From Antarcticibacterium flavum (GTDB taxonomy: Bacteria > Bacteroidota > Bacteroidia > Flavobacteriales > Flavobacteriaceae): a stretch of DNA of 64,000 nucleotides. The notes beneath the pieces are model-generated. The model did not search any database, was not told the origin of the DNA, and saw nothing but the letters and a program-made list of their open reading frames with translations. Position 1 is the first letter of the stretch. Every line of letters starts with the position of its first letter. The stretch is taken from the NCBI RefSeq assembly GCF_006159205.1, contig NZ_CP040812.1:2294001-2358000 (forward strand). Reading direction: 5' to 3'. Positions 23,119 through 58,392 of the stretch are shown here, in pieces. The position numbers and the translations under genes are program-made.

Positions 23119-23685
23119 GCCCCCGGCCCCCTAAGGGGGAGAAAGAATAGACCGCTGCGCAGTTCTTAGTTGTAGGTTGTATGGTTGTAAGTTGTAGGTT
23201 GAACAAATGTGGAGAGAGGAGAGTTGAAAGGCCCCCCGGCCCCCAAAGGGGGAGGGAGAAAACAAATCGCTTGTGCTGCTGGGGTCTAATTTTTTAAACC
23301 GCTTCGCTGTTAGACTGTTTAGAGGATATGGAAAAGCCCCCGGCCCCTAAGGGGGAGAAAAGAAAAAAGACTGCTGCGCAGTTCTTTGTTGTAGGTTGAA
23401 CAAAGTGGAGAGAGGAGAGTGTAATGTGGAAAGTTGGGGCGGGATACTCTCTTTTTTTAGTCCTTTGTAAAAGGAAATTCATTAATCTTTTTTGAAATTT
23501 GGTGCTTGGTGCTTGGTGCTTGGTGCTTTTCGTTTTTCTCTTCTCTCTGTTCTCTGGTCTCTGGTCTAATGCAAAACGTTCAGCCTCCAGACTCCAGACT
23601 CTTTTTCTTCAATTCTTATGTCTTCCTATCCTCATAGTCAAAGGTCTAGACTCCAGACTCTAGATTCCAGACTCTCAGAATAGAG
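23119..23685. repeat. Intergenic repeat mosaic: GC-rich elements and seven-base tandem arrays
   Basis: This non-coding stretch holds three copies of a GC-rich inverted element, CCCCCGG followed by CCCC and then AAGGGGGAG (23119-23141, 23231-23254, 23336-23357). Two of them are followed by the same string with CTGCGCAGTTCTT and GTTGTAGGTTG, so about 100 bp (23119-23223) recurs at 23336-23422. Further on are seven-base tandem arrays: GGTGCTT four times exactly (23501-23528), degenerate CTGGTCT units near 23540-23570, and GACTCCA-type units at about 23583-23680. Open frames across it reflect the repeats only. A dusB promoter begins at the right end. Confidence 0.8.
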
Positions 23686-23716
23686 TTGCCATTAGAACTT
23701 TAATTTGCTAATTTTG
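23686..23716 (+). promoter_or_regulatory. Promoter of dusB
   Basis: TTG at 23686-23688 and TAATTTTG at 23709-23716 are separated by exactly 20 bases, matching the Bacteroidota consensus. Transcription should start near 23722, leaving a short leader before the GTG at 23736. Confidence 0.6.
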
Positions 23717-23735
23717 CATCCTCAAATAAAAAACT

Positions 23736-24728
23736 GTGGCCAAAATAGGAAACATAGATGTAGGGGAATTTCCGTTGTTGCTAGCACCAATGGAAGATGT
23801 GAGTGATCCGCCGTTTCGTGCGTTATGCAAGGAGCAGGGGGCAGATGTTGTTTTCACAGAGTTCATTTCTTCTGAAGGGCTTATTCGTGACGCGGCAAAG
23901 AGCGTGATGAAACTGGATATTTACGAGAAGGAACGTCCTGTTGGGATACAGATCTTTGGCGCAAACCTGGAATCTATGCTGGAAAGCGTGGAGATCGTCG
24001 AGAAGTCGGGGCCTGATATGATCGACATTAATTTTGGCTGTCCGGTAAAAAAGGTGGTATCCAAAGGTGCCGGAGCGGGAATCCTGAAGGATATTGACCT
24101 TATGGTCTCTCTTACAGCCGCGATGGTTAAACACACAAATCTACCTATTACTATTAAGACCCGACTTGGGTGGGACCATGATTCCATTAAGATAGTAGAG
24201 GTGGCAGAGAGGCTTCAGGATGTGGGGGCAAAGGCAATTTCCATTCACGGCCGTACCCGTGCCCAGATGTACAAAGGAGAGGCAGACTGGAGGCCTATTG
24301 CAGAGGTAAAGAACAATCCGCGTATGCATATTCCTGTCTTCGGAAACGGGGATGTGGATACCCCGGAGAAAGCTATGGAAATGCGTGACAGTTATGGCCT
24401 GGACGGCGCAATGATAGGCCGGGCAAGTATTGGCTACCCGTGGTTCTTCAGGGAAGTGAAACACTTCTTTGAGACAGGGGAACATATGGCTCCTCCAACT
24501 TTAGAAGAAAGGGTGAATGCTGCCAGAAGGCATCTTCAAATGTCCATAGACTGGAAAGGGGAGAAGCTTGGGGTGTTCGAAACCAGAAGACATTATACCA
24601 ATTACTTTAAAGGCATTCCGCACTTTAAGGAGTTCCGACAAAAAATGGTGACCAGCGATGACGCGGTAGATGTTTTTGCTGCCTTTGATGAGGTGGAAAA
24701 GGAGTTTGCCGGTTACGAATTCGCTTAG
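23736..24728 (+). CDS. dusB: tRNA-dihydrouridine synthase
   Basis: Flavoenzyme of 330 residues that reduces uridines in the D-loop of tRNA. The TIM-barrel motifs are LLAPMEDVSDPPFRALC, MIDINFGCPVKKVVSKGAGA (with the catalytic Cys), TIKTRLGWD, ISIHGRTRAQMYKGEADW and FGNGDVDTPEKA plus IGRASIGYPWFF. A GTG start is chosen because it precedes the first conserved block and lies 19 bp behind a good promoter; no upstream ATG is in frame. Its 3' end overlaps the convergent permease gene by 4 bp. The gene is alone in its transcript. Confidence 0.96.
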   Translation: MAKIGNIDVGEFPLLLAPMEDVSDPPFRALCKEQGADVVFTEFISSEGLIRDAAKSVMKLDIYEKERPVGIQIFGANLESMLESVEIVEKSGPDMIDINFGCPVKKVVSKGAGAGILKDIDLMVSLTAAMVKHTNLPITIKTRLGWDHDSIKIVEVAERLQDVGAKAISIHGRTRAQMYKGEADWRPIAEVKNNPRMHIPVFGNGDVDTPEKAMEMRDSYGLDGAMIGRASIGYPWFFREVKHFFETGEHMAPPTLEERVNAARRHLQMSIDWKGEKLGVFETRRHYTNYFKGIPHFKEFRQKMVTSDDAVDVFAAFDEVEKEFAGYEFA

Positions 24729-25924
24729 GCTTCCAAAGCTTTTTTGCTTCTGGTAGCTGCTATCCAGGACGCCAGGATCCCAAGGCTGCCAATGGTGAGA
24801 AATACTATGAGGAGGTTTTCCAATCTTATTTGCACCGGGTAAGCCAGGCTTGGAGTGATCATCACCAGGTTAAATTTTAGCTGCAGGTATACCACCAACA
24901 GGGCACCCAGAATTCCTATGATCCCACCCACGACGGTCATAAGCGCACCCTGCATAAAGAAAATGTTCCTGATTTCAGCCGGGGAAGCACCCAGGCTGTG
25001 AAGGGTTTTAATATTTTCCCTTTTATCCAGAATCACCATAATTATAGAACCCACAACATTAAAAAGTGCAATGATCACCACCAGGGTGAAAATAAGATAT
25101 ACCGCCAGGTTTTCGGTATTAAGCATTTTATAGAGAGTTTCGTTGAGCTGTGCACGGTTACGTACCTGTACCCGGTTGTCAAATAACTTTGTTAAGGCCT
25201 CGCTTACTTCAGCTGGTTTAGCCCCCGGGGAAAGTTTTATTTCGATATTTGTTACCTCATCCTCTGCCAGATTTAGCAGAGACCTGGTAAAGCCTGTAGT
25301 GGCAAAGACATATTTACTATCCAGGTCCTCATTCACACTATAAACGCCGGTTACCACGACCCGCTCCCGGTTAAAAGCATTGGTAGGATCTGTGATTTGT
25401 CCCCTTCCCGGGCGGGGCACCATAATACTTAGAAGATTCTGGTAATCATTCACACTAAGCGAAAGAAGACGGGTGATCCCGGTGCCGGCAACTACCTGGT
25501 ATTCATTTTGCGTAAGCCAGCTGCCAAAAATAATGGAATTCTCTACATTATTCACCTCCCTGTAACCAGGGTCAACCCCTTTAATAAAGGCTGTATGGGT
25601 TTTGGATTTATATTCCAGGAAAATGCGTTCTTCAATGACTTCTGAAAAAGACGCTATCCCTTGCAGGTTTTTAAGTTGCTCTTTCTTTTCTTCATCAAAG
25701 CTGAAGGTTTTTCCCGTTACAGGAAACACCTTTAGATCGGGGTCAAATTCATTGGTAAAACTTAAGCTGAATTCCTTAAGTCCTGAAAATCCTGAAAGGA
25801 CGATGAAAAGAGAAAATGCCCCTGCAAACACTCCAATGGCGGCAATGATCGTAATAATGTTGATAGCATTATTGCTGCTTTTTGTAAAAAGGTATCGCCT
25901 GGCAATGTAGAGGGAAAAATTCAC
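24725..25924 (-). CDS. LolC/LolE-like ABC transporter permease (FtsX domain)
   Basis: Inner-membrane permease of about 400 residues in the FtsX/MacB superfamily, close to the lipoprotein-releasing LolC/E type. It has one N-terminal membrane segment (IITIIAAIGVFAGAFSLFIVLSG), a periplasmic domain (about 55-265) and three C-terminal membrane segments (about 280-395, with NVVGSIIMVILDKRENIKTL and LHSLGASPAEIRNIF, the hallmark cytoplasmic loop). The start is a GTG at 25924, one base after the rbfA stop codon; it begins VNFSLYIARRYLF, the normal family start, whereas the longer frame to 26026 would lie inside rbfA. No LolD ATPase is adjacent. Lipoprotein release is a family inference. Confidence 0.88.
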   Translation of the reverse strand: MNFSLYIARRYLFTKSSNNAINIITIIAAIGVFAGAFSLFIVLSGFSGLKEFSLSFTNEFDPDLKVFPVTGKTFSFDEEKKEQLKNLQGIASFSEVIEERIFLEYKSKTHTAFIKGVDPGYREVNNVENSIIFGSWLTQNEYQVVAGTGITRLLSLSVNDYQNLLSIMVPRPGRGQITDPTNAFNRERVVVTGVYSVNEDLDSKYVFATTGFTRSLLNLAEDEVTNIEIKLSPGAKPAEVSEALTKLFDNRVQVRNRAQLNETLYKMLNTENLAVYLIFTLVVIIALFNVVGSIIMVILDKRENIKTLHSLGASPAEIRNIFFMQGALMTVVGGIIGILGALLVVYLQLKFNLVMITPSLAYPVQIRLENLLIVFLTIGSLGILASWIAATRSKKALEA

Positions 25925-25925
25925 C

Positions 25926-26321
25926 TTATGACTTTTTCCTGCGATCCAGCAAATCGGGGTTATTAATTGGATTATCCTCTCCTTTAATAGACTTTTCGAT
26001 CTTCTCGATATGATCAAGGGAATCATCCACGAAAAAGTCCAGGTCTGGCATTCTTCTTAGCTGGTTCTTGGTACGCTGCGCCAGCTCGTGCTTGATCTTA
26101 TTCTTGATAAGGTTAAGTTCCTTAAGGATATCCTGTGCGTGACTCGAAGGGAATATACTTAAGTATGCCTTCGCAATAGAAAGGTCTGTAGTGACCTTTA
26201 CTTTAGAAACCGAGATCAAAATTCCCGTCTTCCCCGCGTCCCTCAAATGATTCTGAAGGATCTCTGCCAGGTCTCTCTGCAAAACCCCGCCTATCTTTTT
26301 CTGTCTGTTTGTTTCTTCCAT
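25926..26321 (-). CDS. rbfA: 30S ribosome-binding factor A
   Basis: KH-fold assembly factor of 131 residues that matures the 16S rRNA 5' end and helps in the cold. Family features are the start METNRQKKIGGVLQRDLAEIL, the central VSVSKVKVTTDLSIAKAYLS type strand and the KIKHELAQRTKNQLRRMPDLDFFVDDSLDH block. Its stop codon is one base from the GTG of the permease gene, an arrangement seen in many Bacteroidota, so the two form an operon. The N-terminal residue reads MEETNRQK. Confidence 0.96.
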   Translation of the reverse strand: MEETNRQKKIGGVLQRDLAEILQNHLRDAGKTGILISVSKVKVTTDLSIAKAYLSIFPSSHAQDILKELNLIKNKIKHELAQRTKNQLRRMPDLDFFVDDSLDHIEKIEKSIKGEDNPINNPDLLDRRKKS

Positions 26322-26882
26322 GTTACAAAAGTAGTATAAATATGGTTAAATTTGAATGGATGATGTTGTAGGTTGTAAGTTGTAGGTTGTAGGTTGTCGG
26401 TTATCGGTTGTCGGTTGTCGGTTGTCAGTTGTCAGTTGGAAAAAGTGGAGAGTGGAAAGAGGAGAGAGGAAAGTCAGGGCAGAGCCCCCTAGCCCCCAAA
26501 GGGGGAAAAAATGACTCGATGTTTAAATTTCAATGTAATCCGCTAAAATCCGCGAAATCCTTTTTCTCCGTGAAACTCTATTTTAAACTCATTTTAAAAT
26601 TCTGTGGTTAAATCAGGTATGAGTGAGATTTTAATCCTTAACCCGCGAAACCCTTAGAAAATATTCGTGCATTAGTGGCTAATAAAAGGTGGAAAGTGGA
26701 AAGAGGAGAGAGGATAGTCAGGGCGTGTTAAAAAAGGAAAAGTTCAGAAAAACCAACTCCGTGAAACTCCATTTAAAACTCATTTTAAACTCTGTGGTTA
26801 AACCGGGTATGAGTGAGATTATAATCCTTAACTCGCGAAACCCTTAGAAAATATTCGTGCATTAGTGACTAACTTTTTTAAA
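26322..26882. repeat. Intergenic repeat region with heptamer array, GC element and 117-bp direct repeat
   Basis: No gene is credible here. At 26365-26434 ten seven-base units of the form GTTGTAG/GTTGTCG/GTTGTCA run in tandem. A run of GTGGAGA, GTGGAAA, GAGGAGA and GAGGAAA units follows (about 26445-26475), then a GC-rich element (26484-26506). Two near-identical 117-bp copies (26566-26682 and 26757-26872) begin CTCCGTGAAACTC and end ATTCGTGCATTAGTG; they are separated by 74 bp that again hold seven-base purine units. A short frame at 26408-26611 is a by-product of the repeats. Confidence 0.8.
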
Positions 26883-26917
26883 CAGCAAACAGAAAACGGA
26901 AAACAGAAAACAGAAAT
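26883..26917 (+). repeat. Five seven-base units abutting the start codon of the epimerase gene
   Basis: CAGCAAA, CAGAAAA, CGGAAAA, CAGAAAA and CAGAAAT fill the 35 bases right up to the ATG at 26918. The array therefore forms the ribosome-entry and leader region of the gene. A change in copy number would move the promoter relative to the start codon without touching the coding frame. Confidence 0.75.
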
Positions 26918-27355
26918 ATGAGAAACATAGAACATATTGGAATTGCAGTAAAAAACCTCGAAGAAGCCAACAAGACCTACAAAGCCATATTGGGCAGTGA
27001 GCATTATAAAACCGAAGAAGTAGAAACTGAGGGCGTGAGCACTTCGTTTTTTAAGATAGGGGAAAGTAAGATAGAGCTGCTGGCTGCAACGAAAGAAGAC
27101 AGTCCAATCGCGAAATTCATTGAAAAGCGAGGAGAGGGAATCCACCATATCGCTTTCAATGTGGAAGATATAAAAGCTGAAATTGAGAGGTTAAAAGCTG
27201 AAGGGTTCACCCTCCTCAACGAAACTCCAAAGCCAGGGGCAGATAATAAGATCGTTGCCTTTATGCACCCCAAGAACGGCCATGGCGTATTGGTAGAGCT
27301 CTGCCAGGACAAAGGACCAACCACAAAAGAAGTGTATGAGGATGGGATGAGGTAA
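26918..27355 (+). CDS. mce: Methylmalonyl-CoA epimerase
   Basis: VOC-superfamily enzyme of 145 residues that interconverts (R)- and (S)-methylmalonyl-CoA in propionate metabolism. Metal-binding residues are visible: His in IEHIGIAVKNLEEA, His in GIHHIAFNVEDI and Glu in GVLVELCQ. The two beta-alpha-beta-beta-beta halves span about 1-65 and 75-140. Length is normal for the family. It has an unusual leader made of seven-base repeats and stands alone; methylmalonyl-CoA mutase is not in the window. It converges with the porin-like gene, 4 bp between stop codons. Confidence 0.93.
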   Translation: MRNIEHIGIAVKNLEEANKTYKAILGSEHYKTEEVETEGVSTSFFKIGESKIELLAATKEDSPIAKFIEKRGEGIHHIAFNVEDIKAEIERLKAEGFTLLNETPKPGADNKIVAFMHPKNGHGVLVELCQDKGPTTKEVYEDGMR

Positions 27356-27359
27356 GGCT

Positions 27360-28463
27360 TTAAAACCCAAATACCCTGTCAAGCTGATAGCCCATTGTAA
27401 CCATCAATTCCCAACGCTTATGCCGGCTATAGCTGCCGGAAAAAAGAGCTGCATTATCATCAAGGTCTAAAAACCTGGCCTCTCCCCGAATATAGGAGTT
27501 GGGATCAGGTTTATATTCAATTCCTAAAGTGAGGCCCCACAATTCCAATCCCTGCATACCGGAATTTTGTGTAGGGATAAGTCCGCTAATAAAGCCGTGC
27601 CTGTCATTGAATACCTCTGCCCTCCCGGTGACAGACCATTTATCGGTGAACAGATAGCGTAGCGTAGTGAGGGCGTTATACATTATTGCTGTCTCCTCCA
27701 TATTTGGCAGTTTGGAATTGGATTGTGTTCCCACATCTCCTCCTACGATCAATATGAGACGTTCGGTTAATACAGTGTTTAGATATAGGTTTTGATAAAT
27801 GCGGTATTGCTTTACTGCAGATCCTTCAGCAGACTCTGTACCCAGCAAATTGGTGTAGGTAAGAGAAGTGTTTTCAGAAAAATTGTAGCTGAACAGTACT
27901 CCGATAGATTTCGCATTATTGTTGTCCAGAAACCTGTTATAGCCGTTGAGCACCCAAAATTCTGTATAAAAATCATCAGATCCTTCATATGTCAGCTTCG
28001 CCCCGGCCTGGTAGAAAGGTTCATTATAGGTAGCCACGGCAGTAGAGCTTAAGAAATCGTTCTTTGGAAGAAAACTTTCAGTCCCTATATGTGTGGCAAA
28101 GAACCCGGCATCTATCCACCAGCCATTTGCCAGTTTGAACCCCAGGTTTGCTTCCTGCACATTATTGTACTCTTCGCTCCAGGTAGCCTTTGCAATATCG
28201 CCCCAATGAAGAATAAGATTGGCTCTCACAAATTGAGAATCATAGGCAAGTCCTATTTGGGCGACATTTAGTCCGAAGCGCTCGCTCCTGGGAGACACAG
28301 TTGTAAAAGGCTGCAGCGCATTTGGCTCCATCTCATTGCTGAAATATGAGTAATATACATCTGTATAAGCTGAAAATGCCAGACTGGAAGAATTTTCCTG
28401 GGCCATAACACCTCTCCACAGGAACAAGAAGGTGATCAAAAATGCAATTTTCCTTATTTTCAT
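27360..28463 (-). CDS. Porin-like outer membrane beta-barrel protein
   Basis: Outer membrane protein of 367 residues with a signal peptide (LITFLFLWRGVMAQE) and alternating hydrophobic beta strands to the C-terminus, which ends LDRVFGF with a terminal Phe as in barrels recognised by BAM. It resembles the Bacteroidota putative porin-2 (OmpL-like) group: FSAYTDVYYSYFSNE at the N-terminus, GLNVAQIGLAYDSQFVRANL and ANGWWIDAGFFATHIG. No pathway can be read from its neighbours. A TATTTTTG box on the minus strand at 28523-28530 may belong to its promoter. Confidence 0.75.
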   Translation of the reverse strand: MKIRKIAFLITFLFLWRGVMAQENSSSLAFSAYTDVYYSYFSNEMEPNALQPFTTVSPRSERFGLNVAQIGLAYDSQFVRANLILHWGDIAKATWSEEYNNVQEANLGFKLANGWWIDAGFFATHIGTESFLPKNDFLSSTAVATYNEPFYQAGAKLTYEGSDDFYTEFWVLNGYNRFLDNNNAKSIGVLFSYNFSENTSLTYTNLLGTESAEGSAVKQYRIYQNLYLNTVLTERLILIVGGDVGTQSNSKLPNMEETAIMYNALTTLRYLFTDKWSVTGRAEVFNDRHGFISGLIPTQNSGMQGLELWGLTLGIEYKPDPNSYIRGEARFLDLDDNAALFSGSYSRHKRWELMVTMGYQLDRVFGF

Positions 28464-28578
28464 ATGTTGGTTTCCATCCTTTCCTGTTTAGATTCCTCCT
28501 GCAACCGTAAGTTACATAAAAACAAAAATAGCTTGCAAACCTTTTGGAAGCTTAGCTCTATCGCGCTAATCACTCCTT

Positions 28579-28641
28579 TCTAAAGTCTCAAATCTCAAGT
28601 CTAAAGTCTAACATCTCACTACTCAATACTAACTACTCACT
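28579..28641. repeat. Degenerate seven-base tandem array before the tRNA gene
   Basis: Nine units of seven bases in register: TCTAAAG, TCTCAAA, TCTCAAG, TCTAAAG, TCTAACA, TCTCACT, ACTCAAT, ACTAACT, ACTCACT. The period is seven although the unit sequence drifts. It lies between the porin-like gene and the tRNA promoter and encodes nothing visible. Confidence 0.7.
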
Positions 28642-28667
28642 ACTATTTAATTTATTTTCAGAAAATG

Positions 28668-28699
28668 TTTGTAGACTAAGCGGCAATTACATAAATTTG
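28668..28699 (+). promoter_or_regulatory. Promoter of the tRNA gene
   Basis: TTTG at 28668-28671 and TAAATTTG at 28692-28699 with a 20-base spacer match the full Bacteroidota consensus. The tRNA begins 24 bases downstream. Confidence 0.7.
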
Positions 28700-28722
28700 C
28701 GCCCTCATAACACCAATGAGCC

Positions 28723-57432: not shown

Positions 57433-58392
57433 GTGATGAAAAATAAACTGAAAGCCGAACTTAAAGAACTGGCGAAAAAAATACAGGAAAGCGATGATTC
57501 TTCCATTGCAGGACTTCAAAAACAGGCAAGGGAAATATATGAGAAATTGACCATTCTTGCCTTTACAGAAGAAAACCTCGGCGCCTATTCTTCTGAAAAA
57601 GAACCTGTCCATATGAAGGAGGCAGCTTCAAAAACCAAACAACCGTCACCTTTCCAGGCATATTCCAATGGAGCTTCGGCTGAAAGGGATGATTATTTAC
57701 CCGATGGAACCGAATATAATGACAGTGATGCCATCACCGAACCCAATACAGAAAAGATCAAGGATATAGTTGCACAAATGCCTCCCGAAACCCAAAAGCT
57801 GGACTTTTTGGTACAGGATATTTTCTCACAGGAGAAAGTTTCCCCAAAAGAAGAAAAGCATAGTCCGGAACCGGTTAAGGAAGAGCCTAAAAAAGAAGAA
57901 GCACGAAGAGAGGAGCCTAAACAGGAGCAGCCGGCAAAGCAGGAACAGAAAATAGAAGAGACGCAACAAGAGGAAAAGAAAGAGGAACCAAAGCAGGAAC
58001 CAAATCCCGAAATAAAGCAAGAGGAGAAGAAAGAGGAGAAGAAAGAGGAGAAGAAAGACTTCCGGGATATTGGAGTGGATTATGATAACCTGCCCTCCTT
58101 TGAACCTGTTAAAAGGCAACAGGAAAAGGAACGCCCAAGGTCTCTTAACGACAGGCTTAAGAAAGGTTTTAATATAGGGCTTAATGAAAGGCTTGCTTTT
58201 ATAAGACATCTGTTTGAAGGAAATACGGCCGACTATAACAGGGTGATTTCTCAACTCAATACATTTAATTCCCTCGAAGAGGCCAGGAAATTCATTCAGC
58301 TCGTCGTGAAACCAGATTATAAACACTGGCAGGGTAAGGAGGAATATGAGAACAAATTCATGGAACTTGTAGAGAATAAATTCAGCCAATAA
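57433..58392 (+). CDS. Hypothetical protein with a Lys/Glu-rich middle, flavobacterial type
   Basis: Protein of 319 residues with no enzyme motif I recognise. It has a helical N-terminus (about 1-45, ELKELAKKIQESDDSSIAGL), a middle with KIKDIVAQMPPETQKLDFLV (about 108-130), a long low-complexity charged segment (about 135-210, EEKKEEPK-type repeats) and an ordered C-terminal domain (about 212-319: SLNDRLKKGFNIGLNERLAF, IRHLFEGNTADYNRVISQLN). The ordered parts joined by a disordered linker suggest a scaffold. It is 9 bp upstream of rsmI, which points to one operon with rsmI and recJ. A second ATG one codon later is possible. Confidence 0.8.
   Translation: MMKNKLKAELKELAKKIQESDDSSIAGLQKQAREIYEKLTILAFTEENLGAYSSEKEPVHMKEAASKTKQPSPFQAYSNGASAERDDYLPDGTEYNDSDAITEPNTEKIKDIVAQMPPETQKLDFLVQDIFSQEKVSPKEEKHSPEPVKEEPKKEEARREEPKQEQPAKQEQKIEETQQEEKKEEPKQEPNPEIKQEEKKEEKKEEKKDFRDIGVDYDNLPSFEPVKRQQEKERPRSLNDRLKKGFNIGLNERLAFIRHLFEGNTADYNRVISQLNTFNSLEEARKFIQLVVKPDYKHWQGKEEYENKFMELVENKFSQ

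Follow-up and report, generated by a model that had tools for sequence, protein, structure and literature searches.

Degenerate units of seven nucleotides (nt) arranged in tandem are known from the short tandemly repeated repetitive (STRR) heptamers of cyanobacteria such as Calothrix, and units of this kind also occur, in another phylum, in the genome of the marine bacterium Antarcticibacterium flavum (G000; one contig of 4.35 Mb), from which we analysed a window of 64,000 nt (G000:C1:2294001-2358000). What makes heptamers the preferred unit among long bacterial tandem repeats is yet to be explained. In a survey of prokaryotic simple sequence repeats (SSRs), the median tabulated for Bacteroidetes was +0.75 for 7n3 as compared to 0 for 4n4, 5n4, 6n3, and 8n3 (Table 2 of PMC4060949; Huang and Mrazek 2014), and the value given for psychrophiles was 1.27 (Table 3 of PMC4060949). 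The idea that the number seven reflects polymerase contacts is credited to Mrazek 2007 by PMC4679880 and is also found in PMC4692102 under its reference 33. Direct repeats of TAACTGA have been described from Beggiatoaceae, Cyanobacteria, and Bacteroidetes (MacGregor 2015, PMC4679880), and the same paper reports that indels between Cyanothece strains mostly come in 7-nt steps, while two Xanthomonas carry a heptamer array between the same genes that differs in length (PMC4692102). The A. flavum arrays belong to this published class of bacterial heptamer repeats and probably reflect two layers, namely a tendency towards tandem amplification in units of 7 nt and the copying of the resulting modules.

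A sequence-only reading of the window had listed several intergenic arrays of seemingly unrelated words with a common step of seven bases and had attributed them to a single process that makes or spreads such arrays, arguing that chance would not give one period in so many words. Every listed array is present, and Tandem Repeats Finder (TRF) revealed two further ones (Table 1). In the three gaps concerned, self-match at lag 7 amounts to 0.452, 0.402, and 0.357 as compared to 0.255, 0.271, and 0.280 in shuffles (z 9.7, 6.5, and 2.5), while z does not exceed 2.9 at lags 5, 6, 8, and 9. All seven lag-7 segments of the window fall within 23119-28722, and lag 7 is not raised in the remainder of the window.

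The same step prevails across the genome. Sampling of G000 by 40 stretches of 20 kb, one per 108 kb (800 kb, of which 119 kb are intergenic), yielded 85 intergenic runs of at least 10 at lag 7 as compared to 0-4 at lags 2-6 and 8-13, and 104 segments with a score of at least 13 as compared to 0-11 at lags 4-6 and 8-13; lag 14 is also high (89 segments) because it is a multiple of 7. Among shorter runs of 7-13, which correspond to roughly two copies, 107 were observed at lag 7 (and 41 longer ones) against 18.4 in dinucleotide-based shuffles, and no further lag between 4 and 12 exceeds 1.8-fold of the shuffles. Both the common step of seven and the argument against chance are thus borne out, and the excess extends well beyond the window. 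Only 17 runs lie in DNA masked as open reading frames (ORFs), as compared to the 85 intergenic ones, even though intergenic DNA is the far smaller part of the sample; some of the masked ORFs are open frames running through arrays. Such a heptamer excess, mainly intergenic and with other unit lengths near expectation, is the hallmark of prokaryotic heptanucleotide long SSRs. The arrays are clustered (20 of the 40 stretches are devoid of any, and the number per 20 kb has a mean of 2.6 with a variance of 18.6), and their density per kb amounts to 0.68 in co-directional, 0.49 in divergent, and 0.83 in convergent gaps.

The words that fill these arrays are far less diverse than independent origins would suggest. 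Across 864 kb of G000, 221 exact tandem heptamer pairs collapse to 106 word classes, with about 181 expected and 164 as the lowest of 200 simulations; pairs of the same class number 547 against 56 expected (simulation maximum 103). When this vocabulary and its single-mismatch variants are set aside, runs of at least 9 fall from 117 to 7 (shuffle mean 1.75). The most frequent words are ACCGACA, TTCCAAA, ACCTACA, and ACTAACG, and most arrays are built from roughly ten word families, which keep the same order and orientation wherever they recur, although the places are unrelated. Within 18 multi-family clusters, evaluated for eight word families, 61 of 68 pairs share the same strand (7 are opposite), and 55 follow downstream as compared to 12 upstream in the order TTAGTCK, GTTTNCN, TTTGGTG, TTTGGAA, then ACTNTCC and CAACCKA. 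Of the 16 clusters with a clear polarity (two mixed ones of the 18 were dropped), 11 have the composite oriented along the leading strand, which is not significant.

The most telling result is that array ends are fixed in several families. TTAGTCK arrays stop at ...GTTAG or ...GTTAGT (phase 4 or 5) in 40 of 43 cases, a set partly retrieved through a match to TTAGTCK itself, and about half of them are 30-34 nt long. When only evenly sampled DNA and the window are considered, all 15 TTAGTCK ends are fixed, these arrays deriving from six stretches and nine of them from L062. In the same restricted set, 23 of 30 GTTGTMR arrays stop at phase 3 or 4 (GTT or GTTG), with an A-run following in 18 of 30, while 9 of 16 AGWGGAR arrays stop at phase 6 and 6 of 9 CAAGAAM arrays show a preferred end. 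Among all arrays collected, GTTTNCN and AGWGGAR likewise have preferred ends and TTTGGAA/TTTGGTG weakly so.

In G000, the word arrays occur as modules whose order and orientation are constant and of which several also stop at a set phase; short A/T runs and common linkers join them. One join recurs at many loci, in which an array ending on GTTG passes through an A-run into an AGTGGAG array and then TAGTC....CGTGT, at some loci followed by a hairpin-like stretch (GGGGTTGGGCTTGCCCC). In the window, this A-run join is represented by GTTGGAAAAAGTGG within the compound array at 26365..26473, where GTTGTAG/GTTGTCG x10 (26365-26434) is continued without loss of frame by GTTGGAA, AAAGTGG, AGAGTGG, AAAGAGG, and AGAGAGG. 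A 70-nt linker of this type, which is flanked by array edges within its own length, matches G000 at 16 places and the 15 other genomes of the genus at one only, a 24-nt match to an array edge in G299. An array-free linker (TTTAACCACGGAGTT...) gave 49 matches in G000 and none in these 15 congeners. Block repeats are also present, for example, alternating GTTGTGG-GTTGTCG, 35-nt (five-unit) blocks at 725 kb, and alternating 14-mers in L043 and L059, so that growth is not restricted to single-unit steps.

Comparison with relatives places these modules in a wider context. The genus (16 genomes including G000) includes Gillisia marina, since congener G302 is identical to strain CBA3202 of this species over the 2190 bp compared. 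Per 100 kb, lag-7 segments number 17 in G299 and 15 in G308 as compared to 1 in G306 and 0 in G312 (other lags except 14: 0-3); per 80 kb, there are 3 each in G301 and G305 and none in G303, G304, and G111. A tree separates the three sampled rich from the six sampled poor genomes by one branch (78/99), which is too weak to date a gain. Synteny at the gene pairs of the window is kept in all seven relatives compared, and most of them have array-free gaps there: gap A measures 76-142 bp in G111, G312, G303, G306, G299, and G301, and gap B 77-225 bp in G312, G111, G303, G306, and G301, all without lag-7 segments. In G308, arrays related to those of G000 are present in gap B and gap C and missing from gap A; gap B of G299 holds other heptamers. 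The array of gap C spans 66 nt (9.4 units) in G000 and 52 nt (7.4 units) in G308, i. e., two units less.

Beyond the genus, scattered lineages of Bacteroidota carry non-coding tandem arrays with a unit of mostly 7 nt. The genera represented by G254 and G127 show a weaker excess (13 lag-7 segments each per 200 kb as compared to 0-7 at other lags except 14). Exact tandem words fall within the G000 vocabulary in only 4 of 13 cases in G308, 3 of 16 in G299, 1 of 9 in G254, 1 of 11 in G127, and 2 of 12 in G301, G305, and G306 combined. TTTGGAA arrays find matches in 100 of 299 genomes of the family, strong ones in a few genera, and in G096, a member of another genus, TTAGTCG runs in frame into TTTGGAG/TTTGGAA. 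Taken together, 80 named Flavobacteriaceae loci show no clear lag-7 excess; real arrays were restricted to Salinimicrobium catena and a metagenome-assembled genome of Aquimarina, with a third match being a run of N.

Because the vocabulary is small, the order and orientation uniform, and the word phase at the ends fixed in several families, the majority of arrays seem to be copied modules of a lineage-specific composite repeat rather than separate births; making at period 7 is still needed, however, because G308, G299, and weakly G254 and G127 show a lag-7 excess with mostly other words. In the first layer, slipped-strand replication or unequal exchange would lengthen and shorten the arrays, always by multiples of 7 nt and at times by blocks of 14 or 35 nt. 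In the second layer, one ancestral composite that already comprised several heptamer arrays may have been copied to many intergenic places in the species lineage, for which candidate routes are mobilisation in trans and, between repeats, gene conversion or ectopic recombination; thereafter, unit numbers could have changed inside the fixed ends. Most likely, the arrays are tolerated filler between stop codons and promoters and not a regulatory code. As regards the single process proposed by the sequence-only reading, its spreading part finds good support in vocabulary, order and strand, fixed ends in several families, and repeated linkers, while much of the agreement within the genome reflects shared ancestry, which that reading had itself named as a refutation. 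One ancestor would in turn account for most G000 arrays and not for the excess in the four relatives named above.

Several observations weigh against the two-layer explanation. For the composite, terminal repeats, target duplication, and a mobilising enzyme are hypothetical, and slippage is presumed. Passage from word to word in frame fits drift within one array as well as the joining of modules, the vocabulary was derived from the same data on which it was tested, and the p-values for end phases take copies as independent. In the evenly sampled DNA and window, end preference is weak for GTTTNCN (p 0.018), and no fixed end was found for TTTGGAA/TTTGGTG (p 0.32). Array-masked sequence is shared by 31 of 41 repeat-rich as compared to 47 of 337 other regions, a difference confounded with length because repeat-rich gaps are longer (median 776.5 vs 176.5 bp). 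Lags 8, 9, and 12 lie mildly above the shuffles at the two-copy level (38/22.0, 34/20.4, and 36/23.4), though without longer runs, and the excess in G254 is small, with 13 segments at lag 7 and 7 at lag 8.

Among the alternatives, the composite could be a non-autonomous mobile element that is served by a transposase in trans and carries the arrays as passengers. Linkers dispersed in the species and restricted to it within the genus, fixed module ends, empty orthologous gaps, and a separate repeat adjoining the arrays that resembles miniature inverted-repeat transposable elements (MITEs) would all suit such an element; we nevertheless regard it as unlikely, as the outer ends of the composite differ between copies and thus indicate a mosaic rather than a single element, and as searches with the low-complexity filter on revealed no match of composite L067 in plasmids or of L062 in phages. 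It is quite unlikely that the arrays are selected binding sites or signals of 3' or 5' untranslated regions, as proposed for TAACTGA in Beggiatoaceae. Some arrays do begin within a few bases of the stop codon of a predicted ORF, and the TTAGTCK family is fixed in form, but the same gene pairs are array-free in five congeners, the words differ between species, and density is not tied to one gene arrangement. In-place slippage only, by which each array would be born independently from local sequence with the number seven set by the polymerase, conforms to the recurrence of period 7 with differing words in differing genomes and to the heptamer excess already in print. Independent births, however, would not lead one to expect a limited vocabulary, kept order and strand, fixed end phases, and common linkers, so that this already disfavoured explanation is very unlikely to suffice. 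A dedicated copying activity that steps by 7 nt, extends on a short template, and then spreads the product, being switched on in some lineages of the genus and off in others, appears highly improbable; it is suggested by modules that often follow an A-run, are made up of a 4-nt core with a variable 3-nt spacer, and terminate in the core. Nothing was found in favour of chance or base composition, which the comparison with shuffles already refutes and which can practically be dismissed.

No single enzyme that goes with the period was found; the four candidate families considered fail to separate rich from poor relatives. Ku (PF02735) is present in 12 of 16 genomes of the genus, including the array-poor G111, G312, G303, and G304, and reverse transcriptase (PF00078) is represented by 0 genes in the rich G308 and 16 in the poor G306, while the counts of Y-family polymerase (PF00817) and MutS_V (PF00488) likewise do not discriminate. 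The reverse-transcriptase genes of near-identical score in G000 (G000:C1 526686, 1864849, 1930098, 3280170, and 936683) and the 16 of G306 are perhaps group II introns. Avoidance of secondary structure was also rejected, as permuting the letters of the tandem words does not yield significantly more foldable sequences (z 1.7 in G000, 1.3 in G308, 1.8 in G299, and -1.25 in G254 and G127 combined), and so was a GT/AC motif common to all words (z 0.6 in G000, 1.5 in the others pooled, and 2.6 in G299 alone). AT is depleted in the tandem words of G000 (z -3.3). A universal vocabulary was rejected as well: in viral contigs, TTAGTCK occurs in 12 stretches as compared to 14 for its reverse and GTTGTCG in 17 as compared to 11 and 7 for two rearrangements, and a search of 395 Bacteroidota genomes showed several without GTTGTCG in which its reversed control is frequent (e. 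g., G593 and G672). A fourth, rearranged control in the viral contigs, TTCAGTK x3, which is close to family B, reached 74 stretches as compared to 7-17 for five other heptamer patterns. Heptamer-rich DNA is not confined to low GC, as three IMG/VR contigs of 8-13 kb with a GC content of 0.61-0.67 (L295, L301, and L306) carry 7, 9, and 14 such arrays.

Table 1. Heptamer arrays of the window and the gaps that contain them (positions within the 64,000-nt stretch).
Feature	Position	Strand	Remarks
Gap A	23119..23735	.	617 bp; upstream of dusB (dihydrouridine synthase, DusB, TIGR00737)
GTTGTAG array	23169..23201	+	4.6 units with indel; TRF; absent from the sequence-only reading
GGTGCTT x4, word family C	23501..23528	+	exact; TRF
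TCTCTGG-type array	23540..23567	+	frame common with the GGTGCTT array
CAGACTC array	23581..23601	+	3 units
TCTAGAC/TCCAGAC array, word family F	23645..23679	+	
Gap B	26322..26917	.	596 bp; rbfA on one side, methylmalonyl-CoA epimerase gene on the other
Compound array in a single frame	26365..26473	+	family H GTTGTAG/GTTGTCG (10.6 units), then GTTGGAA, then family G AGTGGAA/AGAGGAG
GTGGAAA/GAGGAGA array	26689..26718	+	second family G copy of gap B; absent from the sequence-only reading
AAACAGA/AAACGGA array	26880..26916	+	AAACAGA x5; on the reverse strand family B, GTTTTCT/GTTTTCC
Gap C	28464..28722	.	precedes tRNA-Met gene
TCTAAAG/TCTCAAG, then ACTCACT	28579..28644	+	one frame; 9.4 units

Other repeats were encountered alongside the heptamers. 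A longer repeat not built from heptamers (CCGTGAAACTC...CTGTGGTTAAA...ATTCGTGCATTAGTG) is present twice in the window, at 26566-26682 and 26757-26872, with 92 % identity between the copies; TRF assigns it a period of 11, and related pieces are found at many loci. Palindromes of the GGCCCCCTAAGGGGGA type adjoin heptamer modules at 23127-23139, 23240-23252, 23338-23354, and 26493-26505. Many copies of another dispersed repeat, approximately 226 bp long, MITE-like in look, and bounded by CATTGTTGTCCG...CGGACAACAATG (L040:7675-7900, also in L064, L039, L050, L061, and L034), are present in G000 and often adjoin heptamer arrays. Farther away, at 58015-58058, a 12-bp tandem repeat (AAGAAAGAGGAG x3.7) lies within the ORF at 57433-58392.

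The constancy of ends and order suggests that copying is behind a large share of the heptamer excess within a single genome, and surveys in which each array counts as a separate event may therefore overstate the rate at which heptamers are born. A genus that unites array-rich and nearly array-free species, with empty gaps at syntenic positions, makes the heptamer question testable.

In the open-licence PMC literature, no description of an ordered multi-word heptamer composite in flavobacteria was found; it is thus the ordered, fixed-ended composite that appears new in G000, the heptamer excess itself being already known. Like the prokaryotic heptanucleotide long SSRs, G000 has tandem 7-mers beyond expectation and neighbouring unit lengths near expectation (as tabulated in PMC4060949), but in contrast to the counts of repeats given in that survey it shows several words combined in set order with fixed ends. 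The TAACTGA repeats, as presented in PMC4679880, are likewise intergenic heptamers and accompany other heptamers in Gramella forsetii and Aequorivita sublithincola; for three of four sets, the corresponding gaps of relatives are shorter and free of repeats. Unlike this one favoured word, which in Beggiatoaceae is placed mainly just before start codons and whose single-base variants are rarely repeated, G000 employs about ten families in a set order; TAACTGA does not dominate, and single GTTATCA units occur inside the G000 arrays. Finally, the main G000 words are without the GGG run of the G-quadruplex words GGGAATC/GGGGAYT described in PMC4692102, but share with these repeats of Xanthomonas and Nostoc the occurrence of many intergenic heptamer arrays with variable unit number.

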